In this document: one piece after another, positions 31,608-52,566 of the stretch
Layout of the letters: each line of letters begins with the position of its first letter
Numbering within the stretch: position 1 is the first letter of the stretch
Source of the DNA: Lysobacter antibioticus
Lineage (GTDB): Bacteria > Pseudomonadota > Gammaproteobacteria > Xanthomonadales > Xanthomonadaceae
DNA length: 64,000 nucleotides
Assembly: GCF_001442535.1 (NCBI RefSeq)
Contig: NZ_CP013141.1
Location: forward strand, 4,045,894-4,109,893
Direction: 5' to 3'
Position numbers and translations under genes: made by a program
The notes under the pieces: generated by a model
The model's database searches: none
The model's input: the letters and a program-made list of their open reading frames with translations, nothing else
Told to the model about the DNA's origin: nothing

Positions 31608-33554
31608 TCATGCACCGAGCCATTGGCTTCGCACCAGCCTGCGCGATCGATGCCTGGATGCGACGGTACTGGCTCCTGTAATCGTGTGGCTATGGGGGAT
31701 ATCCCTCAACGGCTCAGTGTCCACTGATGCACAGTTCTTCACGATCTTTAGACTTCGCTCGAGCTCGACCCAATGCCGCTCCTCGAAGCGATCGACGCCC
31801 GCCTGCATAGCCGCGGCGCGTGCCATGACGTAGCAGTCCAACGCCTCGTTCCGATCCCGTCGCTTCTCCCACGTCCGAACGGGGTAGCCGTGGCGGTCCC
31901 GGCGGCTGATCAAGTGTTCGGCCGTCAACTGCTGCAAGAATTCGCCGTCGATCTTCGGCAGATGGACGTAGCCGGCCGGAAATGCCGGCTGCCCGTCCGG
32001 ACCGATCTCGATCGACAAACGCAGGGCGTTGTAGAACTCCAGTTTGGCGATGCCGCCCGCGACCGCGAACAGCTTCAGGCCACGGCGCAACCGCTTGCCC
32101 GGCACGCTGACGTCGACGGCGGTCGGAGTGCCGATCAATGCGGCGCCGCTGCCGACGCCTTTCATCGGCAACAGTCGCGGATCGCCGACACTGCGCGCGA
32201 AGGCATAGGCCTCCTGCGTTGCAAAGCCCGTATCCAGGCCCAGCCGGGTCAACGGCAGCAGCACGCCGCTGGCGTGGGTCCAGTGCTCCGACAGGATCGC
32301 GCCCAGCTGATTCCAGACCGCGGCGCGAGCGGTGTCGCCCATCAGCACCCGGTGCTCAACCAGCCAGGTCTCGCGACCCCGGCCAAAAGCCCAGACCGAC
32401 ACCTCGATCCGGTCCTTCTGGATGTCGGCGCCGCCGGTCAGCAACAAGCCACCCACGGGCACGGTACCGATCCGATACTCCTCACGGCGCTCCAGCAGGC
32501 GTTCCCAATCCGGGGCCTCGCCTTCTTCTTCCCAGGTCTCGCCGAGCTCGGTGTTCTTGAACGCCTTCAGCGCCGTCGCCGAACCTTGAGCCGACTCCCA
32601 GGCGGCGGCGATGTCGGCCCAGCTGCGCCAGCCCACCGGGGAGTACAGCGACGACAAGTGGTAGCCGGCGGTCTTGCCTTTGTTCTTCGGCGCCGTGGCG
32701 ATCCAGCGACCCGCCGCCAGCATTGCGGTCTTGTGATGCTCACCGATCGGCTGCTCGCAGGCCTCGCAGATATAGCGCGCAGACCGCGGGTCGCCCCAGG
32801 TCCAGCGCAGCTGCTCGAACCGCAGCCATTGCTCGTGGGCGCAGTGCGGACACGGCACAAAGTACCGGCGTTGGTCGGAGGCCAGGTACTCGCGTTCGAT
32901 GGTGCTGGCGCCGGCAATCGTCGGCGTCGAGACCAGCAGGATCTTGCGGCGGGTGAAGGTACGGGTACGGGCCTCGGCCAGCGCTACCGCATCGCCTTCG
33001 CCCTCGACGTCGCGCGGGTAGCCGTCCACTTCGTCCAGAAAGAGGTAGCGCACCGGCATGGAGCGCAGGCCGACCGCGCTGTTCGCCCCGGTCAGGACCA
33101 GGACGCCGCCGCGGAACTCCTTGGCCAGGATCGTGTTGCCGGCATCGCGCGCACGCGAGGGCGCGATACGCTCACGCAACGACGGCGATTCCTCGATCAG
33201 CGGGTCGATGCGCTGTTTCGAGTTGCGCTTGGCCATTTCGACCGTGGGCGCCACGGCCATCATCGGGCCTGGCGCGCAGGCGATGACGTAGCCGATCCAG
33301 TTATTGCCGCACTCGGTGCCGCCGACCTGCGCGCCCTTCATGAAGACAACGCGCTCCGTCGCCGAGGCCGGCGACAGGTCGTTCATGATGTCGCGCAGGT
33401 ACGGCGTGCGCGCGGTGCGCCAGCGACCCGGCTCCGACGACGAAGTGCTCGACAGCACCCGATCCCGGTCGGCCCAATCGGACACGTCTAGAAACGGATC
33501 GGGCGTCAAGCCATCGCGCCACGCCTTCTCAACGTGGTCGAAGCCGTCGTACAA
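31608..33554 (-). CDS. Terminase large subunit (gpA family)
   Basis: A 648-residue packaging motor of the lambda gpA family. The ATPase half has the P-loop variant FMKGAQVGGTE and the Walker B region RYLFLDEVDGYP; a zinc ribbon-like C-P-H-C and C-E-A-C pair follows. The nuclease half has GADIQKDRIEVSVWAFG and the Asp-rich LGLDTGF segment. The start is TTG at 33554, 3 nt after the small-subunit stop; no better ATG is near. The last ~60 residues are Arg/Ser/Thr-rich and look unconserved. Confidence 0.92.
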   Translation of the reverse strand: MYDGFDHVEKAWRDGLTPDPFLDVSDWADRDRVLSSTSSSEPGRWRTARTPYLRDIMNDLSPASATERVVFMKGAQVGGTECGNNWIGYVIACAPGPMMAVAPTVEMAKRNSKQRIDPLIEESPSLRERIAPSRARDAGNTILAKEFRGGVLVLTGANSAVGLRSMPVRYLFLDEVDGYPRDVEGEGDAVALAEARTRTFTRRKILLVSTPTIAGASTIEREYLASDQRRYFVPCPHCAHEQWLRFEQLRWTWGDPRSARYICEACEQPIGEHHKTAMLAAGRWIATAPKNKGKTAGYHLSSLYSPVGWRSWADIAAAWESAQGSATALKAFKNTELGETWEEEGEAPDWERLLERREEYRIGTVPVGGLLLTGGADIQKDRIEVSVWAFGRGRETWLVEHRVLMGDTARAAVWNQLGAILSEHWTHASGVLLPLTRLGLDTGFATQEAYAFARSVGDPRLLPMKGVGSGAALIGTPTAVDVSVPGKRLRRGLKLFAVAGGIAKLEFYNALRLSIEIGPDGQPAFPAGYVHLPKIDGEFLQQLTAEHLISRRDRHGYPVRTWEKRRDRNEALDCYVMARAAAMQAGVDRFEERHWVELERSLKIVKNCASVDTEPLRDIPHSHTITGASTVASRHRSRRLVRSQWLGA

Positions 33555-33557
33555 GAA

Positions 33558-34106
33558 TTAGTCCAATCGGGCGTTGAACTCCGCGAGTTCGGTCAGGTGC
33601 TGTCGCACTTCGCGCTCCAGCGCGACATGCATGGTGTGTGGGTCAATGCCCAGCTCTGCCGCGAGCATCGAGCTGATCCGCGCCGGCCAGTTCAGCCAGG
33701 CATCGCGCTCGGCCCGCGCCAGCGCGAACACCTGCGCCATCGCCTGTGCACGATCGATCAACTCACCCTTGAGCTGGGCGATGCGCAGCTTGTGGTGCTG
33801 CGCCTTGAGCACCTCATTGGCGGTGCGAGCCTGCGCGTAGGTGTTGCTGCCGCTCTTGGTACCTACCGGCGCCATGCCGGCCGTATCGTCCTCGGCGGCG
33901 GTTGCCGCGCGCGTCCGCGCCTGCCGCGCGGGCACGGCCAGGGGCGGGTCCGGCGCGCGGGTGCTAGCCGCCCACTCGGCGTCGGCGCGCGCGGGGTTGA
34001 TGGTGCCATCCGCCTCGGCGGTGATGCGGCCGGAGGTGATGGCTTTGCGTACCGCCGTGTCCGACACGCCCCGATGACGGCCGTAGGCGCGGATGGAAAT
34101 TCCCAC
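33558..34106 (-). CDS. Terminase small subunit (Nu1-like)
   Basis: A 182-residue DNA-recognition subunit with an N-terminal helix-turn-helix (ISIRAYGRHRGVSDTAVRKAITSGRI), an Ala/Arg-rich linker and a C-terminal helical region (ANEVLKAQHHKLRIAQLKGELID) that would bind the large subunit. GTG start at 34106. It opens the late operon; a shared-stem hairpin at 34174-34200 separates it from the small-gene array. Confidence 0.85.
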   Translation of the reverse strand: MGISIRAYGRHRGVSDTAVRKAITSGRITAEADGTINPARADAEWAASTRAPDPPLAVPARQARTRAATAAEDDTAGMAPVGTKSGSNTYAQARTANEVLKAQHHKLRIAQLKGELIDRAQAMAQVFALARAERDAWLNWPARISSMLAAELGIDPHTMHVALEREVRQHLTELAEFNARLD

Positions 34107-34173
34107 AATAGAAGCAGTCGAATCCGGTGCCCGCCGGGCCCGGCGCGGAGGTTAGTGAAGGCGAAGCACGCAA

Positions 34174-34200
34174 ACCCCAGCGCCCATGGGGCGCTGGGGT
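34174..34200. terminator. Hairpin after cassette 1, shared ACCCCAGCGCC stem
   Basis: Perfect 11-bp stem ACCCCAGCGCC/GGCGCTGGGGT. T-rich on both sides (TTTTCCC on plus, TTTGCG on minus). Lies 14 nt after the end of the 83-aa gene. Confidence 0.75.
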
Positions 34201-34214
34201 TTTCCCACTCCGCG

Positions 34215-34466
34215 TTAGGGAACCGCCGCCGCCTCGTTGACCTCGTCCAGAATCGCGAACCAATCGGGTTCGCTCGGCAGTTCAATACGCGCGTGCTCGC
34301 ACAGCATCTTCACGATTGCCCAGCAGCTAGACGCCATTGTTCGTGCCGCCAATAGGTCGTCCAACTCCAGCTGCAAGGTGTCGTCCCAGCGCAGTAACTC
34401 ATGCAGGCAAACCTCGAATCGCTCTAACTGCTTAGCCGTACTGCGAAAGTCCCGGTGTTCACTCAT
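34215..34466 (-). CDS. Array small protein F1-a (83 aa)
   Basis: A helical acidic protein, the second gene of cassette 1. It shares a framework with the products at 35279, 36441, 37536 and the first half of 38619: an F-R-x-T start, a helix with a central Cys/Leu, then A-A-x-x-(A/M)-A-x-x-(C/A)-x-(A/G)-I-x-x-(L/M)-(L/C/F)-E and an acidic end (here DWFAILDEVNEA). ATG 34466 has GAGG 9 nt upstream. The conserved leader ATG at 34508 is in frame, so an extended form starting MSSPHQRG is possible. Function unknown. Confidence 0.7.
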   Translation of the reverse strand: MSEHRDFRSTAKQLERFEVCLHELLRWDDTLQLELDDLLAARTMASSCWAIVKMLCEHARIELPSEPDWFAILDEVNEAAAVP

Positions 34467-34484
34467 AGTCGCGTGCCTCGTTGC

Positions 34485-34537
34485 GCCGCGTTGATGCGGC
34501 GACGACATGAACGCTTCATTCCGAGCAGAAGCCAAGC
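34485..34537 (-). promoter_or_regulatory. Conserved array leader element, copy a
   Basis: On minus: CTTGGCTTC, spacer, GAAGCGTTCATG, then a small GC hairpin (GCCGC/GCGGC at 34485-34500). The ATG at 34508 opens a leader peptide MSSPHQRGATRHAT, in frame with the gene at 34466. Confidence 0.7.
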
Positions 34538-34559
34538 AGTTTCGGGCGTTCTCGCGAAC

Positions 34560-35090
34560 TCAATTTCGCGGGGCGCATTCCGCACCCGAGATCGCCGTTT
34601 CCAAGTGACGCAGGGCTAACCTGAGCTTTGGCTGGTACTCGGCATCGATGACATCCCAGACCTGCATCAATCGGACCTCGCGCACGACGCGCCCGAGTTG
34701 ATGCACCGGCAGCGCCACATACTCCGGCTCCAGTCCTTCGAAGTACCGCTCGATGGTCGAGAGCAACCAGCGCAGGGTCATCTCGTCTTCGCCGATTTCG
34801 CTGGGCACAGGGCGCTTCGCCAGCCTGCCCTTCGCCTCATCACTATCCAACTCCAGCGGGGCCAACTCCTGCCGACAACCCTCCACCAACCGCTCAAGGA
34901 CATCGCCGCCGAGGCGGTTGGTCCGGAACGTGATGGTGCGTTCGGCGAGGGCGCTTGCGAGGCCGTAGCAGGCGAAGAGCGTCAGGCGGTTCTCGGCTTC
35001 CTCATGTGGCGTGATGGACAGCAGTATCCGTTCCAAACAATCGCTCAGGCTACGCAGCTGTGCTTCGGCGAAGGCTGCATTCTCGTTCAT
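34560..35090 (-). CDS. Array large protein F2-b (176 aa)
   Basis: First gene of cassette 1. A helical protein related to the product at 35720: LERILLS.., a CYGLASALAE segment, LVEGCRQELAPLE, EDEMTLRWLLSTIERY, LPVHQLGRVVREVRLMQVWDVIDAEY and a C-terminal helix. No membrane segment, signal or catalytic motif. ATG 35090 has AAGGA 8 nt upstream. In this copy the conserved leader ATG reads ATC; the leader frame nevertheless ends at the TGA that overlaps the gene ATG. Function unknown. Confidence 0.7.
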   Translation of the reverse strand: MNENAAFAEAQLRSLSDCLERILLSITPHEEAENRLTLFACYGLASALAERTITFRTNRLGGDVLERLVEGCRQELAPLELDSDEAKGRLAKRPVPSEIGEDEMTLRWLLSTIERYFEGLEPEYVALPVHQLGRVVREVRLMQVWDVIDAEYQPKLRLALRHLETAISGAECAPRN

Positions 35091-35107
35091 GGCTTTGTCC
35101 TTATCGA

Positions 35108-35160
35108 GCCGCGTCGGTGCGGCGTCGTGATGAACGCTTCCGTTCGGGAGGAAGCCAAGC
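35108..35160 (-). promoter_or_regulatory. Conserved array leader element, copy b (ATG changed to ATC)
   Basis: CTTGGCTTC, spacer, GGAAGCGTTCATC, hairpin GCCGC/GCGGC at 35108-35123. The frame ITTPHRRGSIRTKP ends in a TGA overlapping the gene start, but its first codon is ATC. Confidence 0.65.
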
Positions 35161-35230
35161 GCTTTCTGCACTGAAATCAATGGCGAGACAGCGGACGGAC
35201 AGGAAGCTGCTGAACTACGTTTTGGAAGAA

Positions 35231-35267
35231 CGAAGGCCCCAGCACCCGGTGGGCGCTGGGGCCTTCG
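35231..35267. terminator. Hairpin after cassette 2
   Basis: 13-bp stem CGAAGGCCCCAGC/GCTGGGGCCTTCG, followed on minus by TTCTTCC. The inner CCCCAGC matches the other array hairpins. Confidence 0.75.
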
Positions 35268-35278
35268 TTCTCCCGCAC

Positions 35279-35536
35279 TTACGGTGCAGCCGCTTCTCTA
35301 TTGAACTTCTCGACCAGTTTCGCCATGTCCGGCTCGTCGGCAATTTCTTCACCCCCGGCCTCGCACAACAAATACACGATGCCCAAGCAAGTCCTCGCCA
35401 GTTCTTTCGCGGCGGCCAGTTCCTCGCGGGACAGTGGGATCAGCGGCTCATCATGGATCAACGACTCCAGCGCCGATTGGCACTCGTTCAGATCCACGAG
35501 CGTGTTGCGAAACCGGCAGTACGACAGGTTCGGCAT
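35279..35536 (-). CDS. Array small protein F1-c (85 aa)
   Basis: Second gene of cassette 2. Starts MPNLSYCRFRNTLVDLNECQ, then PLSREELAAAKELARTCLGIVYLLCEAGG and an acidic end. It is closest to the product at 36441 (CRFQNT, DPPPLSEAELEAAHRLV). ATG 35536 has AAGGA 6 nt upstream. The leader ORF starting at 35577 (MTTPHRRGDAKETK...) overlaps the start of this gene in another frame by about 40 nt. Function unknown. Confidence 0.72.
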   Translation of the reverse strand: MPNLSYCRFRNTLVDLNECQSALESLIHDEPLIPLSREELAAAKELARTCLGIVYLLCEAGGEEIADEPDMAKLVEKFNREAAAP

Positions 35537-35552
35537 TTCGTTTCCTTGGCAT

Positions 35553-35606
35553 CGCCGCGTCGGTGCGGCGTCGTCATGAACGCTTCCGTTCGGGACAAAG
35601 CCAAGC
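35553..35606 (-). promoter_or_regulatory. Conserved array leader element, copy c
   Basis: CTTGGCTTT, spacer, GGAAGCGTTCATG (ATG 35577), hairpin CGCCGC/GCGGCG. Leader peptide MTTPHRRGDAKETK overlaps the gene. Confidence 0.7.
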
Positions 35607-35719
35607 GACTTGTTTGCTGACCGCAGGGACGAGACAGCCGACGGACAGGAAGCCACAGGCAAGCGTTTCAGAAGCGGGCCGGTCTAGCCCGCCATCGCAG
35701 GCATGTATGGATGGTCGAG

Positions 35720-36265
35720 CTACCCCCAATGTGGCGGTGAACCGAACGCCGCCCGCACCGCGCGTTTCAATCCCCTAATACTTGCTCGCAAGCCCTTCTC
35801 GTACTCCGCATCCGGTATGTCCCAAATCGTCAGCAACTCGGTCTGCCTCAGAAGACGTTCGAGTTGACGCACCGGCCGTGGCGTCGATTGCGGCTCCTGA
35901 TCGTCCAGGTAGCGGCCAATCGCGCTATGCAACCATCGAAGGACTACTTCGTCTTCGCAAAACTTGCCAGGGACGCGGCGCTTCTCAGACCCACCATTGC
36001 CCTCGCCGACGGGTTTCTCCAGTGGCTCCAGTTCGTCTCTACAAGCTCTTAGCAACCATTTCAGCGTTTCCGGGTCGAGCCGACTGGCCCGAAGGGAAGT
36101 GCAGTGGGCTGACAACGCGCTTGCGAGCGCATAGCACCCAACCAAGGGCGCGCGGCTAGGCCCTTCAAACATCCGGGCGTTGGATAGCAACAGTAGCTCG
36201 ATGCATCTGTGCATGCCCTGTAAGTGGGAATGCGCAACAATTTCGTCCACACAGACGTCTCTCAT
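35720..36265 (-). CDS. Array large protein F2-d (181 aa)
   Basis: First gene of cassette 2, clearly related to the product at 34560: CIELLLLS, VGCYALASALSAH, LLRACRDELEPLEKP, EDEVVLRWLHSAIGRY, RPVRQLERLLRQTELLTIWDIPDAEY and a final helix. The leader ATG at 36307 is in frame (MSSPHNAVNPWIHT); ATG 36265 itself lacks a good Shine-Dalgarno site, so the extended start may be used here. Function unknown. Confidence 0.7.
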   Translation of the reverse strand: MRDVCVDEIVAHSHLQGMHRCIELLLLSNARMFEGPSRAPLVGCYALASALSAHCTSLRASRLDPETLKWLLRACRDELEPLEKPVGEGNGGSEKRRVPGKFCEDEVVLRWLHSAIGRYLDDQEPQSTPRPVRQLERLLRQTELLTIWDIPDAEYEKGLRASIRGLKRAVRAAFGSPPHWG

Positions 36266-36285
36266 TGTATGTATCCATGGATTCA

Positions 36286-36330
36286 CCGCGTTGTGCGGCG
36301 ACGACATGAACGCTTCATCCCGCTGGAATA
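36286..36330 (-). promoter_or_regulatory. Conserved array leader element, copy d (diverged)
   Basis: GATGAAGCGTTCATG is kept (ATG 36307), but the CTTGGCTTC arm is changed to CTTGATATTC. In-frame leader MSSPHNAVNPWIHT. Confidence 0.6.
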
Positions 36331-36397
36331 TCAAGGTGTTCTGAGCGTATCGCCGACGCCGTACGGCGTGTGGACGGATAGGATTGGAAGAGGGAAC

Positions 36398-36424
36398 ACC
36401 CCAGCGCCGACTCGGCGCTGGGGT
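36398..36424. terminator. Hairpin after cassette 3
   Basis: 13-bp stem ACCCCAGCGCCGA/TCGGCGCTGGGGT at the end of the 82-aa gene. Only a short T run follows on minus (GTTCCC). Confidence 0.65.
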
Positions 36425-36440
36425 CTGCTCTCTCGCCGAA

Positions 36441-36689
36441 TCAGGTCGCTGCGTGGTTCAGATCATCGAGCACCATAGCGAGATCCATGTCGGGCTCAAA
36501 CTCCAACGATCCGCGTTCAGCCAACAGCCGCACGATGCTCAGGCAACTGGTGACCAAGCGGTGTGCCGCCTCCAACTCCGCTTCACTCAGCGGGGGTGGA
36601 TCGCCATCTGTCATGTCTTCCAAGGCCTGCACGCAGTCCGCCAGACCCGAGGCGGTGTTCTGGAATCTGCAATTGGACATACTCGCCAT
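36441..36689 (-). CDS. Array small protein F1-e (82 aa)
   Basis: Second gene of cassette 3: MASMSNCRFQNTASGLADCVQAL, then SEAELEAAHRLVTSCLSIVRLLAERG and DMDLAMVLDDLNHAAT. ATG 36689 follows AAGAGA; Met 4 (36680) is an alternative start. The leader peptide from 36732 (MWTPQRCGET) stops 11 nt before the gene. Function unknown; F1 family membership is clear by eye. Confidence 0.72.
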   Translation of the reverse strand: MASMSNCRFQNTASGLADCVQALEDMTDGDPPPLSEAELEAAHRLVTSCLSIVRLLAERGSLEFEPDMDLAMVLDDLNHAAT

Positions 36690-36708
36690 CGTCTCTCTCT
36701 TACGTTTC

Positions 36709-36760
36709 GCCGCATCGTTGCGGCGTCCACATGAACGCTTCCTTTTCAGCAGAAGCCAAT
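36709..36760 (-). promoter_or_regulatory. Conserved array leader element, copy e
   Basis: TTGGCTTC, spacer, GGAAGCGTTCATG (ATG 36732), hairpin GCCGCATC/GTTGCGGC region. Leader MWTPQRCGET ends before the gene. Confidence 0.7.
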
Positions 36761-36823
36761 AGCATGACGGCGCCGTTTCGACTTCAGACAGGTCTCCGAC
36801 AGGTTCGCACAGGCCATCTGCGT

Positions 36824-37336
36824 CTACTCCGGCAATTGGCCTAGCGCTTGCTCCAGTCCGCTGAGCGCGAAGCTGATTCCGTGCTGGTATTCGGCGTCGT
36901 CGGGCCGCCATTCGTGCAACCGCTCAGCCACCGCGAGTGCGTGTTCGAGCCACTGGCGCGGCGTCAGCGTCGGTCGGCACAGGAGGAAGCCATCGATCTG
37001 GTGGGCCGTTTGCACAAGGGCGCTGGCGACGGCCTCATTGCGCCGCTTGGGCCGACGTTTGATTGGGTTGAACCCGCTTCGTAACCGCTGCTCCCAGTCC
37101 CGAAGTTCGCTATCAGCCGCCGCCACGCGTGCACAGAGCTCGACGGGTTCCGTACGCCGCGCACGGTCGAGGCGGGTCCAGGGTTCGAGGAAACCGGCCA
37201 GCGCAGTACAAGCCTCTGTTCTGCTAAAGCCATTCCGCCATAGCGACTCCAGATCCGTCGGCGCCTGTTCCACCAACCATCGGATGCGACCGGGCAGCGT
37301 ACCCAGCGTAAAGAATGCTCGCTCTACGTCTTCCAT
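36824..37336 (-). CDS. Array large protein F2-f (170 aa, divergent)
   Basis: First gene of cassette 3, in the F2 position and of F2 length, but its sequence has drifted. The C-terminal EWRPDDAEYQHGISFALSGLEQAL matches the DAEY-x-x-x-(L/I)-x-x-(A/S)-(L/I) end of F2-b and F2-d; the N-terminal two thirds differ and have a basic patch (NPIKRRPKRRNEA). ATG 37336 has GGAAGGA upstream. The leader ORF from 37377 (MPSPRLAANGRTKK...) ends just inside this gene. Function unknown. Confidence 0.65.
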   Translation of the reverse strand: MEDVERAFFTLGTLPGRIRWLVEQAPTDLESLWRNGFSRTEACTALAGFLEPWTRLDRARRTEPVELCARVAAADSELRDWEQRLRSGFNPIKRRPKRRNEAVASALVQTAHQIDGFLLCRPTLTPRQWLEHALAVAERLHEWRPDDAEYQHGISFALSGLEQALGQLPE

Positions 37337-37353
37337 TTCTTTGTCCTTCCGTT

Positions 37354-37407
37354 CGCCGCCAAGCGCGGCGACGGCATGAACGCTTCCTTTCAAGGAAAAG
37401 CAAAGTG
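37354..37407 (-). promoter_or_regulatory. Conserved array leader element, copy f
   Basis: CTTTGCTTTTCC arm (partly diverged), GGAAGCGTTCATG (ATG 37377), hairpin CGCCGC/GCGGCG at 37354-37370. Confidence 0.65.
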
Positions 37408-37488
37408 CACTCCGTCCCAGTTCGCGTGTCGGCAGATGGACGGACAAAGTGGCTCGTTCATATCGCTTGCAGATCGCTAGAAGAGGGC

Positions 37489-37519
37489 ACACCCCAGCGC
37501 CCATAAGGCGCTGGGGTGT
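37489..37519. terminator. Hairpin after the solo F1 gene
   Basis: 13-bp stem ACACCCCAGCGCC/GGCGCTGGGGTGT, loop CATAA; same core stem as the cassette hairpins. Confidence 0.65.
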
Positions 37520-37535
37520 TCGCTCTCGGTCTGCG

Positions 37536-37793
37536 TCAGACGTCGGCTAGGTTGTTCAGATGCTCGATCGTCATGTCCATGTTTAGCTGAAGCGAAAGAT
37601 GCATCCCTTGCGCTTCGAACAAGCCCTCAATCAGACCCCAGGCCCCAGCCGCCAATTGCTTGGCCGCCGCCAATTCCTCGGCACACAGCGGCGGGGCGAG
37701 CTGCGTACCCATTTCCGCTAGCCGTTCTGCGCAAGCTTCGTGCAAGACCAAGGCGGTGCGAAACAGATGCGAGTCGGGGATTTCAATGTTCAT
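37536..37793 (-). CDS. Array small protein F1-g (85 aa)
   Basis: Solo F1 gene at the head of the minus-strand array: LFRTALVLHEACAERLAEMG, then CAEELAAAKQLAAGAWGLIEGLFEAQGM and an acidic-Asn end. The ATG overlaps the TGA of the leader peptide that starts at 37834 (MSLPRRRGQPGTTP), the clearest case of possible translational coupling on this strand. Function unknown. Confidence 0.72.
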   Translation of the reverse strand: MNIEIPDSHLFRTALVLHEACAERLAEMGTQLAPPLCAEELAAAKQLAAGAWGLIEGLFEAQGMHLSLQLNMDMTIEHLNNLADV

Positions 37794-37810
37794 GGTGTCG
37801 TTCCTGGTTG

Positions 37811-37864
37811 GCCGCGACGTCGCGGCAACGACATGAACGCTTCCTTCGGTCGGGAAGCCAAGTG
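37811..37864 (-). promoter_or_regulatory. Conserved array leader element, copy g
   Basis: CTTGGCTTC, spacer, GGAAGCGTTCATG (ATG 37834), hairpin GCCGCGAC/GTCGCGGC. Leader MSLPRRRGQPGTTP stops in ATGA with the gene. Confidence 0.72.
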
Positions 37865-37981
37865 GATGTTGAGAGAAGAATGACCATTCCCCCGTTCTGT
37901 TTAGCTACCAGACAATCAAACGGCCTCAGCTGTACCGCGGTTGTCTGGCGACGGTGGATACCTGGACATGGCGACGGGTTC

Positions 37982-38038
37982 GCTTGGCTTCCGGCGAAAC
38001 GGAAGCGTTCATGCGTGCACCCAACACGCACGGCCACG
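37982..38038 (+). promoter_or_regulatory. Conserved array leader element, copy h
   Basis: CTTGGCTTC, spacer, GGAAGCGTTCATG (ATG 38011), then CGTGC/GCACG arms and GGAGG, the Shine-Dalgarno site of the gene at 38048. With copy g it marks a divergent start of the minus and plus arrays. Confidence 0.72.
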
Positions 38039-38047
38039 GAGGCTGTC

Positions 38048-38437
38048 ATGAACAAGAAGACGCTCGCTACCATCGCGCAGCAGCACTTGGATGTAGCGAT
38101 ACTAGAGACACGCGGCAGCGACAGCCTGGACTTCCATAGCGTTTCGGTGTGGGGCATCGACGCCGCGCTGACCGCCGCCTACTTAGCAGGCTACGCGGCG
38201 GCGGTACGCGCGGCCAACGGCAGCCACGTCGACGCGCTTACCACGGAGCGACATACGATGCTGGGCGGCGTCTGGCTCGGAGAAGGCGAAGCCAGCGAGT
38301 GGTCGCTCGACCAGCGCGCCGAAACCGTGGTCACCTTGCCTATCCCGGAGGTCGAGCTGCTGGCATACCACTGGACTGAGCGAAAGGCCTGCGATTTGCT
38401 CATTCCGACCGCCATCCGGCAACGCCGTATCGCTTGA
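38048..38437 (+). CDS. DUF6900-like phage protein
   Basis: A 129-residue protein: MNKKTLATIAQQHLDVAILETRGSDSLDFHSVSVWGIDAAL, the pattern of DUF6900 domains seen in phages and mobile elements, then an acidic middle and a basic end. GGAGG lies 5 nt before the ATG. It is the first plus-strand gene of the array and has a decayed partial copy at 39124. Molecular function unknown. Confidence 0.75.
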   Translation: MNKKTLATIAQQHLDVAILETRGSDSLDFHSVSVWGIDAALTAAYLAGYAAAVRAANGSHVDALTTERHTMLGGVWLGEGEASEWSLDQRAETVVTLPIPEVELLAYHWTERKACDLLIPTAIRQRRIA

Positions 38438-38616
38438 CCTCATTCCCCGAAGCGCAACACATACGCCCCCAAGCGGGGCGTTTTCGTTCCTGTCCGGCGC
38501 AGCTGTCCGACACCTGTCTACGGCTGAGAACGATCGTTCTTTATCGCTGCTTTCGCTTGGCTTCGTCGGCGAAGGAAGCGTTCATGTCGCCACACCAACG
38601 ACGGCCACGGAGGCCA
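38286..38616 (+). repeat. Direct repeat, copy 1 (~330 bp)
   Basis: Contains the 3' part of the DUF6900-like gene, the following ~140 bases and the leader element before the fusion gene. Copy 2 is at 39124-39455 and is over 90% identical by eye. Confidence 0.8.
38556..38610 (+). promoter_or_regulatory. Conserved array leader element, copy i
   Basis: CTTGGCTTC, spacer, GGAAGCGTTCATG (ATG 38584). The leader peptide MSPHQRRPRRPP (38584-38622) ends in a TGA that overlaps the ATG of the next gene. Confidence 0.75.
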
Positions 38617-38618
38617 CC

Positions 38619-39017
38619 ATGAACGCAAACAACACCTTCCGGTTTCGCCACGCCCTGGCCGCCCTTACGGGATGCCGCACCGAGCTCGAAGCGCTCGTCA
38701 GCAGGGCGGGAATCGCGCTTACCGCCGACGAGCTCGATGCTGCGGGCGAGATTGCGGCCCATAGCATTGCAATCATCGAGATGCTCGCGGAGGCAGGCGC
38801 GCACGCGGTGCATCTGGCAGAGCTGGCACGCGATGTGCCTGAGATCCTCGACCTACTAAATGCTAGCGCGCCGATGCTAAAGCCCAACCTTGACGAGATG
38901 CTCGAAAGCATCGACGACCACCTACAAACCACCCCAGGAAACGCTGAGTACCGAATCGGCTTGAACCGCGCGCGTCGGGAACTCCACCTATCGAAAGAGG
39001 CCCTCAGCAGCCGGTGA
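38619..39017 (+). CDS. F1-F2 fusion protein of the array (132 aa)
   Basis: Residues 1-80 match the F1 family (FRFRHALAALTGCRTEL, ADELDAAGEIAAHSIAIIEMLAEAG). The remaining ~45 residues end NAEYRIGLNRARRELHL, resembling the DAEY-helix end of the F2 proteins. The fusion suggests that F1 and F2 proteins work together. GGAGG is 5 nt before the ATG, which overlaps the leader stop. It has its own short hairpin downstream (GGCGCC-rich, 39042-39060). No known domain recognised. Confidence 0.7.
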   Translation: MNANNTFRFRHALAALTGCRTELEALVSRAGIALTADELDAAGEIAAHSIAIIEMLAEAGAHAVHLAELARDVPEILDLLNASAPMLKPNLDEMLESIDDHLQTTPGNAEYRIGLNRARRELHLSKEALSSR

Positions 39018-39123
39018 TTCAGCCGAGCCGGAAGGCAGAAGGCGCCCATCGCGGCGCCTTTTGTGCTCGCGTCCCAATCAGATTGTCTGATGGGTGAACA
39101 CAATGGACTGCGCCCGATCCTTA

Positions 39124-39275
39124 GCGAAGCCCGCGAGTGGTCGCTCGACCAGCGCGCCGAGGCCCTGGTCACCTTGCCTATCCCGGATATCGAGCTGCTG
39201 GCATACCACTGGACTGAGTGAAAGGCCTGCGATTTGCTCATTCCGACCGCCATCCGGCAACGCCGTATCGCCTGA
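39124..39275 (+). pseudogene. Decayed partial copy of the DUF6900-like gene
   Basis: Copy of codons ~80-129 of the gene at 38048, lacking any start. One base change turns the ACT GAG CGA codons into ACT GAG TGA, a stop in the middle. It arose with the ~330-bp duplication. Confidence 0.75.
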
Positions 39276-39394
39276 CCTCATTCCCCGAAGCGCAGCACAT
39301 ACGCCCCCAAGCGGGGGCGTCTTCATTCCTGTCCGGCGCAGCTGTCCGACACCTGTCTAAGGCTGAGGACGATCGTTCTTTATCGCTGCATTCG

Positions 39395-39450
39395 CTTGGC
39401 TTCGTCGGCGAAGGAAGCGTTCATGTCGCCACACCAACGACGGCCACGGA
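39395..39450 (+). promoter_or_regulatory. Conserved array leader element, copy j
   Basis: Part of the duplicated segment. ATG 39423 opens MSPHQRRPRRP, here in frame with the gene at 39459. Confidence 0.72.
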
Positions 39451-39458
39451 GGCCAGAC

Positions 39459-39689
39459 ATGCAAGACGGAACGCAAACCCTGAAGGACTTCTTAAGCGGA
39501 ATGAAGACGGGCACCCCCTCGGCGCTGGCCCAACTCACGGTGCTGAAGGACTGGACAGAGGTAGCTCAGCGCGAGATCGAACGCCGCGCCACCTTCTTCC
39601 TCCAAAAGCTTCCCGACGACGTCATCTGCGCCATTGCCGAAGGCGAAATCGACGTCCGCAACGCCATCGGCGAAGTGCTCAGCGACTGA
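39459..39689 (+). CDS. Unknown 76-aa array protein
   Basis: A small helical protein (MQDGTQTLKDFLSGMKTG, then LKDWTEVAQREIERRATFFLQKLPDDVICAIAEGEI). GGAGG lies 6 nt before the ATG. The leader ATG at 39423 is in frame and would add 12 residues (MSPHQRRPRRPD). It is not visibly of the F1 or F2 family. Function unknown; lies before the DUF3489 gene. Confidence 0.65.
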   Translation: MQDGTQTLKDFLSGMKTGTPSALAQLTVLKDWTEVAQREIERRATFFLQKLPDDVICAIAEGEIDVRNAIGEVLSD

Positions 39690-39758
39690 TCTAACCGCGC
39701 GCCCTGCAATGACGGGGCGCGCCTATCCAGACACACCTCACTCACTAAGGAAACCATC

Positions 39759-40451
39759 ATGACCAAGATCGAATTGACCCCGAGCCAGCGTGCCATCCTT
39801 GAACTTGCCGTCGAGACCGACGGGCGCGTCGAAAGCTTCCCCAAGAACCTTGGTGGCGGTGCGCGCTCGGCGGTGATGCGCGGCCTGCTGCTCAACGGCC
39901 TCATCGCTGCCGAAGGCGCGGGCCACGCGCTGACCGATTTCGGCTACGAGGCGGTCGGCAAGCAGCCGCCGGCAGGGGCGGAAGCCGACAGCGATGCTGA
40001 CGACGCCGAGACTGAGACCGAAGCCGAGACTGTCGCCGAACGCGTCGTCGCCGACGAGCCGGTCGGTGCACCCGGCGATAGCCTGCCCGAGACCGGCGAC
40101 TGCACCAGCGACGGCGACACGAGCCTTGCGCCCGCTCCGAGCCCGGTCGCGGCTAAGGCGGCTAAAGCGGCTAAAGCGCCGAAACCGCCGAAGGAGCCGA
40201 AGGCCAACCGCGTCGAGCAAGTCGTCGCCATGTTGCTGCGGCCCGAAGGAGCCACCATCCCCCAAGTGATGGAGGTGACTGGCTGGTTGCCGCACTCCAC
40301 GCGCGGATTCTTTGCCGGTGCGCTCAAGAAGAAGGGGTACACGCTCGTCAGCGACAAGAGCGGCAAGGCCGACCGCGTGTATCGGATCGCGACGGAAGCC
40401 GGCACCGAAGCCGACGACGACCGGGCCGGCCGCAGCGACGAGGCCAAATGA
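39759..40451 (+). CDS. DUF3489-like DNA-associated protein
   Basis: A 230-residue protein with an N-terminal winged-helix-like part (LTPSQRAILELAVETDGRVE), an acidic and Ala/Lys/Pro linker, and a C-terminal DUF3489 domain (EQVVAMLLRPEGATIPQVME, then LPHSTRGFFAGALKKKGY). Both ends look like small DNA-binding domains, so a transcription regulator or nucleoid role is plausible. AAGGAAA precedes the ATG. It lacks the leader element carried by its neighbours. Confidence 0.8.
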   Translation: MTKIELTPSQRAILELAVETDGRVESFPKNLGGGARSAVMRGLLLNGLIAAEGAGHALTDFGYEAVGKQPPAGAEADSDADDAETETEAETVAERVVADEPVGAPGDSLPETGDCTSDGDTSLAPAPSPVAAKAAKAAKAPKPPKEPKANRVEQVVAMLLRPEGATIPQVMEVTGWLPHSTRGFFAGALKKKGYTLVSDKSGKADRVYRIATEAGTEADDDRAGRSDEAK

Positions 40452-40531
40452 CCTGATTGACGGCCGGGGATTGGCCCCGGCCGTCGCCACTTTCGGAAAC
40501 CGACGCCGACCCGCTGGAGTTCCCTGGTAGC

Positions 40532-40565
40532 GAAGCGTTCATGGGCTCCGCAATACGGAGACAAA
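40532..40565 (+). promoter_or_regulatory. Conserved array leader element, copy k (short)
   Basis: GCGAAGCGTTCATG with ATG 40541, without the CTTGGCTTC arm. The leader MGSAIRRQT is in frame with the next gene. Confidence 0.55.
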
Positions 40566-40567
40566 CG

Positions 40568-40930
40568 ATGCACCCACACGAAATCAAAGGCCCGGACCCT
40601 GTGTTCGCTTCACTGCCCGAACGAATTCTCGTTGTGGTCGAGGACGCCCTATCCAATGATGAGTCGTCCACCGACGCTGAGATGGCGCAGTACCTACTGG
40701 ATATCGGCCTGACCGACGAACAGGCCCGGCATGCGGTGAGCTACCGCGACGTGTACCGCCTCAACATGTGGATGGATTGCTACACACCTATTCGCAGCGC
40801 TGTCCGAGTTCGTTACAAACGGGGCCAGCGGCGAGTACGAAGTAACTTGAATCCTGCACCGCCGCCGACCGCGCGGCGGTTCTCTTCTCTCCGATTCAGC
40901 TGGCCGGGATGTGTGCCGCGTTTGTGTTGA
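40568..40930 (+). CDS. Unknown array protein, possible 3' frameshift (120 aa)
   Basis: The first ~70 residues are acidic and well ordered (DPVFASLPERILVVVEDALS, DAEMAQYLLDIGLTDEQARH, RDVYRLNMWMDCY). The rest becomes Arg/Pro/Ser-rich and runs through a hairpin (CCGCCG/CGGCGG near 40858-40881). In the next frame the same DNA reads HLFAALSEFVTNGASGEYEV and then stops at about 40850, a more natural end, so a single-base shift near 40780 is likely. Function unknown. Confidence 0.55.
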   Translation: MHPHEIKGPDPVFASLPERILVVVEDALSNDESSTDAEMAQYLLDIGLTDEQARHAVSYRDVYRLNMWMDCYTPIRSAVRVRYKRGQRRVRSNLNPAPPPTARRFSSLRFSWPGCVPRLC

Positions 40931-40994
40931 GAACGGCCGTTCTCGTCTGACACGTTAATGACTTGGAGTTTCAGCGAGATTCCGCAATTAATGA

Positions 40995-41050
40995 CTTGGC
41001 TTCCTCCGGGAATGAAGCGTTCATGTCCGCACGCCCACCACGGAAGACCG
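40995..41050 (+). promoter_or_regulatory. Conserved array leader element, copy l
   Basis: CTTGGCTTC, spacer, GAAGCGTTCATG (ATG 41023). The leader MSARPPRKTD is in frame with the gene at 41053. Confidence 0.68.
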
Positions 41051-41052
41051 AC

Positions 41053-41370
41053 ATGACCACGACGAGCATTGCGCCCCGCAACCAAATGGTCCGATTTACG
41101 CGCAAGGCCGAGAGCCTGTATTGGGTACAGCGGGAACTGGGCGACCTCAACGTCCGAGCCGAGCTTGCCTTGGTCGTCGCGGTCAAGGAGCTGACCGCCG
41201 AGGAATACGACGCGTTCGCCAAACGGCTGCTGCGCGCGCGAGACTGGCTGGCCAACTTCGACGGTATCTGCCACGAGGTACTGGAAGTGCGGTGCCCGGG
41301 CCGCCCGACGCTCTACGTGAAGTCGAAGGGAACCAACTACGCCCACACCGTTGGGCTGGCGGCGGAGTAA
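41053..41370 (+). CDS. Unknown array protein (105 aa)
   Basis: Last plus-strand array gene. A mixed alpha/beta product (MVRFTRKAESLYWVQRELGD, LTAEEYDAFAKRLLRARDWLANF, CPGRPTLYVKSKGTNYAH). The leader ATG at 41023 would add MSARPPRKTD in frame. It ends convergent with the methyltransferase block. No family recognised. Confidence 0.68.
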   Translation: MTTTSIAPRNQMVRFTRKAESLYWVQRELGDLNVRAELALVVAVKELTAEEYDAFAKRLLRARDWLANFDGICHEVLEVRCPGRPTLYVKSKGTNYAHTVGLAAE

Positions 41371-41400
41371 GCCGAGTCCGCGTCTGACACCTTACCCGCG

Positions 41401-42120
41401 CTACGCCGGCCTCGCGAGCACCGACTGAGCCAAGCCGCTGCTGGCGTCGCCCCCGGGCGCGGCGTCAGCCGCGCAGGGCACGGAGGATTTCGGCGGCGAC
41501 CTGTGGGACGATCGCATTGCCGGCGGCGCGCAGCTTAGGAATTCGGGCGGATATCCCATCAGCCAGAAGACGAATTCCGGATTCAGGTACCCGGCGACCG
41601 GCGAGGGTTTGACTTGTCTGCCAAGCATCCCATTCTCCGGTGCGCTGCCAATGCTCGACGCGTCCTTGTGATCCCGCGTCGTCGGCGTCGCCCAGACCGC
41701 CTGCGCCGCCAACGGTCGGGTCGACCCACTGCCGAACTGCTGATTCGGACCGCCCTTCTCGCCGTCGCTCGCGCGCGGCGTGCTCCAGACTGCCTTCACG
41801 ACTCCCGGTAGGCCATTGCGTCGCTCGGCCGCAAAGTCGCCGCGCTTCTCTGGATCGTTCGCCGTCGCGGTCGGCCAGACCAATTTTGCCGCCACTTGCA
41901 AACTCGTAATCGTCCGTCGCTGCCCGCCTCGCATCCTCGACTTCATGGCCAGATGCGCCTCGGGCGACTTGTTGTCGTCGTTCGCTACGGCAGTCGGCCA
42001 AACGGCGACCGACGATCCAGACGCGCTCGCGTCGATGCGGGGCGTTGACGGCGCAAGCTGGAACAACAACCGCCCGGCCGGCGTAGCCTTCGGCTTCCAG
42101 GTCAGCAAGAACTCCATCGA
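41401..42120 (-). CDS. Overlapping-frame WPT-motif protein within the C5-methyltransferase gene
   Basis: A second frame through the 3' half of the methyltransferase gene encodes up to 239 residues from ATG 42120 (EFLLTWKPKATPAGRLLFQL). It has repeated WPT/STP motifs (VWPTAVANDDNKS, VWPTATANDPEKRG, STPRASDGEKGGPN, VWATPTTRDHKD) and the ending LNPEFVFWLMGYPPEF. These motifs are usual in phage proteins encoded with or beside Dcm-type enzymes. The frame stays open well beyond the methyltransferase stop. It may be expressed from the internal start or by frameshift. Confidence 0.55.
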   Translation of the reverse strand, partial: SMEFLLTWKPKATPAGRLLFQLAPSTPRIDASASGSSVAVWPTAVANDDNKSPEAHLAMKSRMRGGQRRTITSLQVAAKLVWPTATANDPEKRGDFAAERRNGLPGVVKAVWSTPRASDGEKGGPNQQFGSGSTRPLAAQAVWATPTTRDHKDASSIGSAPENGMLGRQVKPSPVAGYLNPEFVFWLMGYPPEFLSCAPPAMRSSHRSPPKSSVPCAADAAPGGDASSGLAQSVLARPA

Positions 42121-42505
42121 GCCCCAACGCGATGAGGCCAGCAACGTTCTCGCCCACGAATAGAGCGGGTCGCGCCGATGCAATAAGGCGGCGCAGTTCC
42201 GGCCAGAGGTGGCGGTCGTCCGCTTGCGCGCGCTGGCGGCCTGCAACGCTGAACGGCTGGCAGGGGAAGCCGCCAGTCCAGATCGAGTCGTCGTCCGGCC
42301 AGCCCGCGAGCCGACAGGCATAAGCGAATCCGCCGATGCCGGCGAAGAAGTGGCATTGGCCGTAGCCGCGCAGGTCGTCTGCGCGAACAGATCGGATGTC
42401 TCGGTCATCGACGTCGCCAGGGGGAATCAGGTCGGCCGCAATGAGATTGCGCAGCCAACCGCAAAGGTAGGAATCACTTTCGTTGTAGTAGGCGGGCCGG
42501 GTCAT
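41465..42505 (-). CDS. DNA (cytosine-5) methyltransferase
   Basis: A 346-residue C5-methyltransferase that methylates cytosine in DNA, probably to protect phage DNA. Motif I is FFAGIGGFAYACRLAGW, motif IV GGFPCQPFSVAGRQR with the catalytic Cys, motif VI ENVAGL, motif VIII RRERVWIVG and motif X AGNAIVPQVAAEIL. Between VIII and X the sequence is Arg/Gly-rich with LADRDGE and GLGDADD repeats, typical of the variable target region. The ATG overlaps the stop of the upstream methyltransferase gene. Confidence 0.9.
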   Translation of the reverse strand: MTRPAYYNESDSYLCGWLRNLIAADLIPPGDVDDRDIRSVRADDLRGYGQCHFFAGIGGFAYACRLAGWPDDDSIWTGGFPCQPFSVAGRQRAQADDRHLWPELRRLIASARPALFVGENVAGLIALGLDGVLADLEAEGYAGRAVVVPACAVNAPHRRERVWIVGRRLADCRSERRQQVARGASGHEVEDARRAATDDYEFASGGKIGLADRDGERSREARRLCGRATQWPTGSREGSLEHAARERRREGRSESAVRQWVDPTVGGAGGLGDADDAGSQGRVEHWQRTGEWDAWQTSQTLAGRRVPESGIRLLADGISARIPKLRAAGNAIVPQVAAEILRALRG

Positions 42506-43758
42506 GCGAGCGCGGTCTTTGTTTCGGCCTCAGCATCGCGCGCTGCATGCTCGAATAGGACGCCATCCGATTGCCTGGTGGCCGCCTGGCCGGTGTGGTC
42601 TTGCCAGCGCCGGACGATCACGTCCGCGTACTTCGGGTCCAGTTCGATCAGGCGCGCGCGGCGGCCGGTCTTCTCGCAGGCGATCATCGTCGTGCCCGAA
42701 CCGCCGAACGGATCGAGGATGAGATCGCGACTCTTGCTGCTATTGCGGATCGCCCGTTCGACCAACGCCACTGGCTTCATGGTCGGGTGAAGGTCGTTCT
42801 TGCTGGTGCGGTCGATGAACCAGACGTCGCCCTGGTCACGGGCGCCGCACCAGAACCGGTCGTTGCCGTCCCGCCAGCCATAGAGAATGGGTTCGTACTG
42901 CCGTTGGTAATCGGCATGCCCCATCGTGAACTTGTTCTTGGCCCAGATGATGAAGGTGGACCAGCGACCGCCCGCTGCACGGAAGGCCTCCTGCAAGCGG
43001 TCCAGCTCAGACGAGGACATCGCCATGTAGACCGCGCCCTTGGTCGCCGTCAGGATTTGCTGACAGGCGGCCTGGAGGAATACGCCGAAGTCCGAGCCCA
43101 AGTTGTCGTTGAGGATTGGGCGGTGCTTGCCGCGCAGCTTGTCCTTGGGGTTGTTGGCGTAATCGACGTTGTAAGGCGGATCAGTGAACGTCATGTCCAC
43201 CAGCTCATCGCCGAGCAGGGCGGCGTAATCGTCGCTGCTGGTGGCATCGCCGCACAGCACCTTGTGGCCACCACAGATCCAGACGTCTCCGGGGCGCGAA
43301 ACCGGATGCTCGGTCGGCTCCGGCACCTCGTCATCATCGGTTAGACCGGCCTGGTCATCGATCAGCAGGTCATCCAGCTCGTCTTCGGTGAAGCCCAACA
43401 GATCCAGATCGAACTCCGCGTCGCGAAGCTCGGCCAACTCCAGCTTCAGCAGTTCCTCGTCCCAACCAGCATTCTCAGCCAACCGGTTATCGGCGATGAC
43501 GTAGGCGCGTTTCTGTGCCGGGGTTAGGTGTGCCAGTTCGATCACCGGCACCTGCGCAAGTCCGAGTTGGCGTGCGGCAAGCAGTCGACCGTGGCCGGCG
43601 ATGATGCCACTGGTTCCATCGACCAGGATCGGATTGGTCCAGCCGAACTCCACGATGCTGGCGGCAATCTGCGCGACCTGCGCGTCGGAGTGCGTTCGTG
43701 CGTTCCGCGCAAATGGAATGAGCGCCTCGATCGGGCGCTGTTCGATCTGAAGGCTCAA
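42502..43758 (-). CDS. ParB-like domain plus N6-adenine/N4-cytosine methyltransferase
   Basis: A 418-residue two-domain protein. Residues 1-110 are ParB/Sulfiredoxin-like (FARNARTHSDAQVAQIAASI, GIIAGHGRLLAARQLGL). A permuted (beta-class) DNA methyltransferase follows, with motif IV DPPYN at ~194 and motif I DPFGGSGTT at ~349. Such proteins are common in phage early regions and usually modify adenine. The acidic linker (DDQAGLTDDDEVPEPTEHP) joins the domains. It lies upstream of, and overlaps by 4 nt, the C5-methyltransferase. Confidence 0.9.
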   Translation of the reverse strand: MSLQIEQRPIEALIPFARNARTHSDAQVAQIAASIVEFGWTNPILVDGTSGIIAGHGRLLAARQLGLAQVPVIELAHLTPAQKRAYVIADNRLAENAGWDEELLKLELAELRDAEFDLDLLGFTEDELDDLLIDDQAGLTDDDEVPEPTEHPVSRPGDVWICGGHKVLCGDATSSDDYAALLGDELVDMTFTDPPYNVDYANNPKDKLRGKHRPILNDNLGSDFGVFLQAACQQILTATKGAVYMAMSSSELDRLQEAFRAAGGRWSTFIIWAKNKFTMGHADYQRQYEPILYGWRDGNDRFWCGARDQGDVWFIDRTSKNDLHPTMKPVALVERAIRNSSKSRDLILDPFGGSGTTMIACEKTGRRARLIELDPKYADVIVRRWQDHTGQAATRQSDGVLFEHAARDAEAETKTALA

Positions 43759-45771: not shown

Positions 45772-46370
45772 GCCGTCGCCTCCTGCGCGATAGCCCAATG
45801 CAGCAGCGCGAGGGCGTCGGCTTCGTTGTCATCCTCCGGCCGATGGCCCCAACGTTTCGCCGCTTCGATCATCGCCGCCTTGTCGGCATTGCCCTTTCCG
45901 GTGGCGAACTTCTTGATCGTGCCGACCGGCACGCCCTGGTACGGAATGGCGTGACGCTCACACCACGCGGTGAGCTGCGCCAGGAAGCCGCCGTAGACGT
46001 GCGCGGCATCGACGCCGCGGTGGCGACGCACCTCCTCGAAGTAGAGCGTCGAGGGCGGGCCTGCGAAGCGCCACAGATCATCGAGCCATCGGACGAAGCG
46101 GAGGTAACGCATGCCGCCGCCCTCGAAGCGGCCGACCTTGAAGTGCTCGGTGCCGCTCATGGCCTGACCGGATAGGCGCAGCGCCCAACCCAGCGTCGTG
46201 CCCAAGTCGAGCGCCACCAGTGTCGGCGAGGTGTCCCCGACGACCTGGGTGGCGGATGGGGCAGGGTTGCCGGTCAATGCGCGTGTGTGCGCGCGCACGC
46301 ACACATGAGAGGGAACCGGCATCTCTGCCCCATCCGCCACCCTCTCGCATAAGTCATTGATTTTAGCCAC
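45768..46370 (-). CDS. RuvC-like Holliday junction resolvase
   Basis: A 200-residue phage resolvase of the RuvC/RNase H fold. Acidic catalytic positions are seen in VALDLGTTLGWAL (Asp near 54), YFEEVRRHRGVDAAHVYGG (Glu) and PEDDNEADALALLHWA (Asp pair near 185). The KKFATGKGNADKAAMIEAAK segment is also typical. Such enzymes resolve branched DNA before packaging. The GTG start overlaps the primase-helicase stop by 8 nt. Codons 30-36 fall in a long alternating purine-pyrimidine stretch. Confidence 0.85.
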   Translation of the reverse strand: MAKINDLCERVADGAEMPVPSHVCVRAHTRALTGNPAPSATQVVGDTSPTLVALDLGTTLGWALRLSGQAMSGTEHFKVGRFEGGGMRYLRFVRWLDDLWRFAGPPSTLYFEEVRRHRGVDAAHVYGGFLAQLTAWCERHAIPYQGVPVGTIKKFATGKGNADKAAMIEAAKRWGHRPEDDNEADALALLHWAIAQEATA

Positions 46371-52437: not shown

Positions 52438-52500
52438 TGCAACAACTCCTCTCATGCGATGGCACCAATGTGCTTTCGCGGAGAAGCGTCGTACAAAGCC

Positions 52501-52566
52501 GGCTAGAACCGAAAGATGGAAACGACTAGATCGAAGACTAGATCCAACTAGAAACAACTAGAAGCC
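52501..52566 (-). promoter_or_regulatory. Phased CTAGA repeats upstream of the early operon
   Basis: Four ACTAGA copies at 52524, 52537, 52547 and 52558 (spacing 13, 10, 11) plus CTAGAA at 52503. Near one helical turn apart and 70-130 nt upstream of the first early gene; operator or iteron-like. Confidence 0.55.

Follow-up and report, generated by a model that had tools for sequence, protein, structure and literature searches.

A conserved promoter-like element precedes small genes in a Lysobacter antibioticus prophage and in related phages

A question raised by a 64,000-nucleotide stretch of Lysobacter antibioticus DNA (contig NZ_CP013141.1, positions 4,045,894 to 4,109,893; hereafter the window) is how a series of small prophage genes, preceded by copies of one short sequence, is controlled. 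We find that the full element reads CTTGGCTTY-N13-GCGTTCAT and lies about 46 nt before the start codon, and that it is larger than first described. Its conservation across phages, seen in genomes, in IMG/VR and in loci fetched through their proteins, supports the proposal of the initial annotation that a single regulatory element serves a whole gene set. Judged from its sequence, the element is probably a noncanonical, lineage-specific DNA promoter.

The core of the element, GAAGCGTTCAT(G/C), occurs as 12 exact copies between positions 34506 and 41025 (minus strand, 7; plus strand, 5) and nowhere in the rest of the 64-kb window. Chance would give 0.025 copies per window, and the maximum in 200 first-order Markov simulations was 2; the twelve-copy array is real and far beyond chance, and every copy listed by the initial annotation was found in place. 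The upstream half of the element that it had paired with the core is also present, at exactly 10 nt from the core in 12 of 12 copies rather than at the 7–13 nt given there. This half is exactly CTTGGCTTC in 7 of the 12 copies and differs by 1–2 mismatches in three (35586, 36741 and 37386); it takes the form CTTGATATT, shared with locus L180, in the copy at 36316, and is degenerate in the copy at 40532. The proteins encoded in the array share 27–41% identity where they are related at all, yet the element core is unchanged. Four further exact core copies occur in the 5.77-Mb genome beyond the 12 in the window: two are without the upstream half, a third (L001) keeps 6 of its 9 bases, and the fourth is absent from the matches listed with at least 6 of 9 upstream-half bases.

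The internal spacing is as constant across the family as within the array. In loci fetched with DUF3489, a protein family represented in the array, the gap between CTTGGCTTY and GCGTTCAT was 13 nt in 112 of 112 matches when 5–25 nt was allowed; the viral loci of this kind are the best 80 of 553, chosen to escape pattern selection, and some of their contigs overlap earlier scans. The same gap was found in 48 of 52 matches to an open pattern in 60 genomes, and in 407 of 424 matches over all loci, many of which were selected by fixed-gap patterns. Loci from the looser element scans of IMG/VR are those among the matches listed; among the listed matches first gained by a scan that allowed gaps of 10–16 nt, 53 of 70 had 13 nt, and the remaining 17 gaps were scattered over five lengths, as chance predicts. 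The fetched loci hold at least 332 redundancy-reduced copies. Among 153 such copies, the core variants are AGC (77), GAA (62), AGA (10) and four others, and the copies in the window belong to the GAA class. A profile scan for looser forms shows that the first half mostly retains CTTG, with the next five bases varying in several ways, and that the second half occurs also as GCGTTACT or GCGTGAAT. The start codon lies a median of 46 nt downstream, and at 35–54 nt in 202 of 219 copies.

Read as DNA, the element consists of TTGGCT, 17 bp and GTTCAT. The first hexamer is TTGGCT in 134 of 156 diverse copies, and the second is GTTCAT in 130, GTTACT in 7 and GTGAAT in 6. In the protein-fetched loci, where copies were found by profile, TTG at -35 and the last T of the -10-like box are each present in 77 of 78 copies; the -35 TTG and the approximately 17-bp spacing of sigma-70 promoters are both found here. 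A pyrimidine–purine step stands 6/7 nt past the last T in 73% of the 156 copies, compared with 4–38% for other such steps at positions 11–45, save 60% at 19/20, and it is present at the predicted start in 72 of 78 copies from protein-fetched loci. From this predicted start, a leader of about 29 nt would extend to the start codon at its median distance.

Upstream of the element, AAA trinucleotides peak at -25, -36 and -47 from the core, with a period of about 11 bp and near-zero troughs between the peaks. The peaks are stronger in the AGC class (32, 20 and 15%; 190 copies) than in the GAA class (12, 7–8 and 6–8%; 113 copies), and in neither class did any of 300 rotations give periodic power as strong (0/300). 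With transcription starting at +17, the A-tracts would centre near -41, -52 and -63, where the C-terminal domain of the polymerase alpha subunit touches UP elements. UP elements are marked by A-tracts that lie upstream of -35 in a phase of about 11 bp; such tracts are present here, weakly so in the GAA class.

The long invariant boxes would also be expected if the element were an operator only, that is, a site for a repressor or activator with the promoter elsewhere in each leader. Another feature that fits an operator is found in the GAA class, where 40 of 113 copies have a TGTC beginning at -62 to -60 and 26 of 113 one beginning at -73 to -71; other intervals of equal width hold it in 0–5 copies, two overlapping intervals aside, and the AGC class has it at these two places in only 2 and 1 of 190 copies. 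Seven copies in the window have the TGTC site at -60/-61. The spacing fits regulator sites about one helical turn apart, which may constitute a second, branch-specific signal. A promoter elsewhere in the leader, however, left little trace: TATAAT-like hexamers are rare near the element (3 in 156 copies versus approximately 14 by rough estimate) and nowhere concentrated between -68 and +40, and a consensus scan of 33900–41500 found no sigma-70-like promoters (1.1 expected). The phased A-tracts keep a constant distance from the -35 box of the element itself, and at one locus (L073) the preceding reading frame runs right up to the element. We consider the operator-only explanation unlikely.

Within the array, sister GC-rich hairpins end 78–100 nt before copies 2, 4 and 6 (numbered from left to right), and another strong hairpin ends 44 nt before copy 11. 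If these hairpins terminate transcription, copies 2, 4, 6 and 11 need a nearby promoter. The sister hairpins failed a scan for intrinsic terminators, which found 5 sites against 7.1 expected.

An RNA element, either a 5'-leader hairpin or a protein-binding site controlling translation or stability, would explain some local features. Right after the core, left-hand copies in the window carry a GC hairpin (GCCGC...GCGGC), some right-hand genes have their Shine–Dalgarno site within GGCC-ACGGA-GGCC, and folding of the region after the core is stronger than that of shuffled sequences for some GAA-class copies (class mean z = -0.86, with 32% below -1.5). This GC hairpin, frequent in the left half of the window, is not a feature of the whole family, and in the AGC class the region after the core folds about as shuffles do (mean z = -0.09). 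The pairing of GCTTC with GAAGC put forward in the initial annotation does not survive comparison. The AGC variant, the commonest (77 of 153), is unable to form the stem; the first-half variants CTTGATGTT, CTTGCGATG and CTTGCTATC break it with no compensating change in the second half; and no run of covarying pairs was found among the top-ranked positions in the 156 diverse copies. Measured against shuffled sequences, the region of this stem has a mean z of -0.7 in the GAA class, a slight gain in folding, and of +0.6 in the AGC class, where it folds less well than they do. The phasing of the upstream A-tracts is a feature of DNA, and we judge an RNA element improbable. A known Rfam RNA was rejected, as the window gave 0 matches at the gathering score and sub-threshold ones only. 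The small hairpins around the Shine–Dalgarno site of right-hand genes (38030–38050, 38601–38621 and 39440–39462) have a relative at locus L063, where AGCC...GGCT shows matching changes; they may represent a separate translational control.

The initial annotation had also proposed that the ATG in the core opens a short coupled leader peptide controlling translation of the downstream gene. The window itself suggests this, as 11 of 12 copies have the ATG with GAAG 5 nt upstream and two leader reading frames end in ATGA at the gene start; the sequence bears out both overlaps (37834 and 38584), but the element family as a whole shows no enrichment of overlaps of this kind. We compared 464 copies, reduced to 230 by removal of near-duplicates and, after 11 that had no confident gene start were dropped, to 219. 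At the supposed leader start, 114 of these read ATG, 60 ATA, 30 ATC, 11 CTA and 4 ATT. In the copies with ATG, the frames of the downstream gene are near uniform (45/40/29), and the leader stop overlaps the gene start in 18 of 69 out-of-frame copies with ATG versus 26 of 70 without. Redundancy-reduced copies from protein-fetched loci have ATG in 21 of 78, below ATC (25). A coupled leader peptide was rejected, as the start codon is not conserved, the frame is untied and stop–start coupling is no higher with ATG. Because only 114 of 219 and 21 of 78 copies have the ATG, with unremarkable frames and coupling, it is chiefly a trait of certain branches, including Lysobacter. The leader peptide is probably a coincidence of the element sequence, and its role as a translational control very improbable.

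The array belongs to a lambda-like prophage with terminase (31608–33554), portal, protease and capsid genes, followed by genes for a ParB-methyltransferase (42502–43758), primase (46363–48660), DUF2924 protein (54132–54614) and serine integrase (55443–56798). The prophage is largely co-linear with Acidithiobacillus phage AcaML1, the small terminase subunit being an exception, and AcaML1 has three element copies before short reading frames, with AGCGCGTTCATA replacing GAAGCGTTCATG. The product of 42502–43758, a ParB-like domain fused to an N6/N4 DNA methyltransferase, has 66% identity to an AcaML1 protein. The paired element was found in 9 of 19 other genomes of the genus; Lysobacter sp. ISL-50 also carries copies. 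A scan of 60 genomes found the paired form in 11, a tally that includes the L. antibioticus genome itself and G054, in which the match is without flanking boxes. All 10 element matches with at most 1 mismatch in the L. antibioticus genome sit inside the prophage. Outside the prophage, a scan of that genome for a host regulon gave only matches with 2 mismatches or more; those with 2 were scattered (8, versus 1 for a reversed control).

The element recurs in phages of other bacterial classes, and the hosts of the phage lineage are labelled Gammaproteobacteria, Betaproteobacteria and Acidithiobacillia. The motif search in relatives suggested by the initial annotation places the element well outside recent duplications, in genome, viral and protein-fetched loci alike. 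Very different genes sit behind the same element in different phages, as they would if it were a recombination linker, a shared boundary sequence for swapping small gene cassettes between phages. Such a linker gives no reason for the two halves to keep a fixed gap, for the start codon to follow at a near-constant distance or for the A-tracts to be phased, and we find it scarcely credible. At eight loci (L048, L049, L058, L070, L073, L078, L079 and L084), a lone near-identical element stands before a DUF2924-type gene; at L073, a serine recombinase gene lies downstream.

A protein that accompanies the element is DUF3489. It is encoded in 41 of 42 chosen element-bearing records, all of at least 34 kb (some further records above this length, including those of L122 and L146, were left out), and all 80 of the best 80 of 553 viral loci fetched with it carry at least one element copy at 15 bits or more. 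It is also present in 18 of 21 genomes, mostly metagenome-assembled, behind 22 chosen loci of 38. Within the genus, DUF3489 is intact in all nine element-bearing genomes, and among the 10 other genomes a match was found only in G002, with two stops. Among 143 genomes sampled evenly from the class, 7 have the exact element pattern (1 with the reversed control) and 6 have DUF3489, one of them below the cut-off; 4 genomes have both. Of the three with the pattern and without DUF3489, G202 scores as chance, G107 has no DUF2924 gene behind the element, and G235 has a DUF2924 island whose recombinase is apparently degraded. Nine DUF3489 matches in a sample of cellular genomes, including that of L. 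antibioticus, include five loci with clear element copies and one with a marginal copy (15.3 bits).

The predicted structure of the DUF3489 protein has two confident winged-helix domains (residues approximately 1–70 and 150–212; mean predicted local distance difference test score, 75.8; predicted template-modelling score, 0.39). Because it accompanies the element in 41 of 42 records and 80 of 80 loci, DUF3489 is a candidate regulator, and this role is plausible. The DUF2924 protein, encoded beside the serine integrase, is an alternative candidate reader, and its gene often carries the element itself. It is present in 35 of the 42 records and in 16 of 18 chosen genomes or records; in viral records it is found less regularly than DUF3489, but some of these may end before the integrase. 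A small HTH_17 (MerR/BldC-like) regulator encoded at 52234–52557, shared with AcaML1 (gp9), is another candidate regulator, for example of the TGTC sites.

We propose that a bacterial-type multisubunit polymerase would bind the -35 box (CTTG, usually CTTGGCTTY) and, exactly 17 bp on, a noncanonical -10-like box that follows GC and reads GTTCAT or, in fewer copies, GTTACT or GTGAAT. The phased A-tracts upstream would serve as contact sites for the alpha subunit, and transcription would begin at the conserved pyrimidine–purine step, 7 nt past the -10-like box, giving an untranslated leader of approximately 20–35 nt with its own Shine–Dalgarno site. Each small gene or short gene run would then be its own transcription unit under common control. 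Firing probably depends on a phage factor, given that the -10 box suits sigma-70 poorly and that, outside the prophage, no chromosomal copy with fewer than 2 mismatches was found; the leading candidate is the double winged-helix DUF3489 protein, as activator or autorepressor. As a tentative model, which we hold to be possible though on balance doubtful in its entirety, the phage lineage runs a dedicated promoter class in which host polymerase, docked on the A-tracts, is redirected to GTTCAT-type -10 boxes by a phage factor, most likely DUF3489, and unrelated accessory genes are thereby joined into one plug-in regulon.

Several observations weigh against this proposal. Sigma-70 -10 boxes require an A at position 2, which GTTCAT (130 of 156 copies) does not have, and an extra factor must therefore be invoked. 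In the GAA class, which includes the window copies, the A-tracts are weak, AAA reaching at most 12% of copies at any position, and few copies in the window show them. Positions 16–19 are conserved (YRYC) beyond what a start site needs. With regard to DUF3489, three of the nine cellular loci are without the element, one of them below the Pfam cut-off, and 3 of the 21 chosen genomes are without DUF3489; record G074 has the element and no DUF3489, as does genome G235, where the island is apparently degraded. DUF3489 itself stands directly behind an element in 61 of the 80 loci; association with a neighbour is for this reason no proof of regulation, and DUF3489 may be merely a target gene and lineage marker.

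The twelve copies in the window are arranged around a divergent pair. On the minus strand, copy 1 (34498–34536; -35 box CTTGGCTTC, -10-like box GTTCAT; predicted start of transcription at 34500) precedes a gene for 83 amino acids (34215–34466), and copy 2 (35121–35159; predicted start 35123), in which ATC replaces ATG, one for 176 (34560–35090). Copy 3 (35567–35605; CTTGGCTTT; predicted start 35569) precedes a gene for 85 amino acids (35279–35536), copy 4 (36297–36335; variant -35 box CTTGATATT; predicted start 36299) one for 181 (35720–36265), copy 5 (36722–36760; ATTGGCTTC; predicted start 36724) one for 82 (36441–36689) and copy 6 (37367–37405; CTTTGCTTT; predicted start 37369) one for 170 (36824–37336). 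Copy 7 (37824–37862; predicted start 37826), ahead of a gene for 85 amino acids (37536–37793), is the divergent partner of copy 8. The left-hand array resembles a tandem duplication of a cassette of element, large gene, element, small gene and hairpin. Four sister GC hairpins (CCCCAGCGCC...GGCGCTGGGG) follow the small genes, at 34163–34211, 35225–35273, 36387–36435 and 37480–37528; the last, on the minus strand between units (repeat family D6), folds strongly and looks terminator-like, but the intrinsic-terminator scan did not score it. An inverted repeat CCAGACAA...TTGTCTGG at 37908–37948, between the divergent copies 7 and 8, is a possible operator.

On the plus strand, copy 8 (37983–38021; predicted start 38019) precedes a DUF6900 gene for 129 amino acids (38048–38437; Pfam PF21841, E = 1.9e-21) and copy 9 (38556–38594; predicted start 38592) a gene for 132 (38619–39017). 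Copy 10 (39395–39433; predicted start 39431) stands before a gene for 76 amino acids (39459–39689), which is followed by the DUF3489 gene for 230 amino acids (39759–40451; PF11994, E = 2.5e-21; predicted winged-helix domains from the structure model and structural matches). Copies 9 and 10, with cores at 38575 and 39414, are a recent duplication, 94–95% identical over 151–193 nt; the duplicated segments, 38286–38616 and 39124–39455 at the same identity, take in the 3' end of the DUF6900 gene. Copy 11 (40513–40551), with the degenerate upstream half GCTGGAGTT, precedes a gene for 94 amino acids (40568–40852), and copy 12 (40995–41033; predicted start 41031) one for 105 (41053–41370).

We recognized no description of the element among the matches listed in the open-access literature. 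If it is a promoter, it provides a predictive signature for a widespread phage regulon that we have not found described in that literature, locates the start sites of hundreds of small genes of unknown function, opens DUF3489, a domain of unknown function, to a concrete test, and would add a class of phage promoter with a -10 box at odds with the sigma-70 rule. Should the reader protein be encoded by the phage, the pair is a candidate orthogonal expression system.

The element resembles a sigma-70 promoter with an UP element in its -35 TTG, 17-bp spacer, final T of the -10 box and phased upstream A-tracts, and differs from one in having GTTCAT, GTTACT or GTGAAT in place of TATAAT and a longer invariant -35 region, CTTGGCTTY. 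The C and Mor proteins of Mu and Ogr of P2 are phage activators acting at dedicated promoters that are read by host polymerase, as proposed here; the site sequences differ, and DUF3489 was compared with those activators by family scans only. The likeness to cluster K mycobacteriophages drawn in the initial annotation holds for a repeated promoter-like element in one lineage and not for the sequence itself: the 13-bp start-associated sequence GGGATAGGAGCCC is not enriched in the window (3 matches at 2 mismatches versus 1.45 expected) and has none in the array, and identity with it was rejected. The extended start-associated sequences (ESAS) of cluster K repeat upstream of many genes and form an imperfect inverted repeat of 15–17 bp (PMC3203893, PMC11373665, PMC12699233), and that of Adephagia holds SigA-like -35 and -10 hexamers 17–18 bp apart, making it a putative promoter (PMC11373665). 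Our element differs from the ESAS in sequence, host phylum and phage lineage, and in that no inverted repeat or SigA-like pair of hexamers is seen in its consensus, the -10 box being noncanonical. The ESAS is the nearest known case, as in both systems a promoter-like element is repeated upstream of many genes within one lineage of temperate phages.

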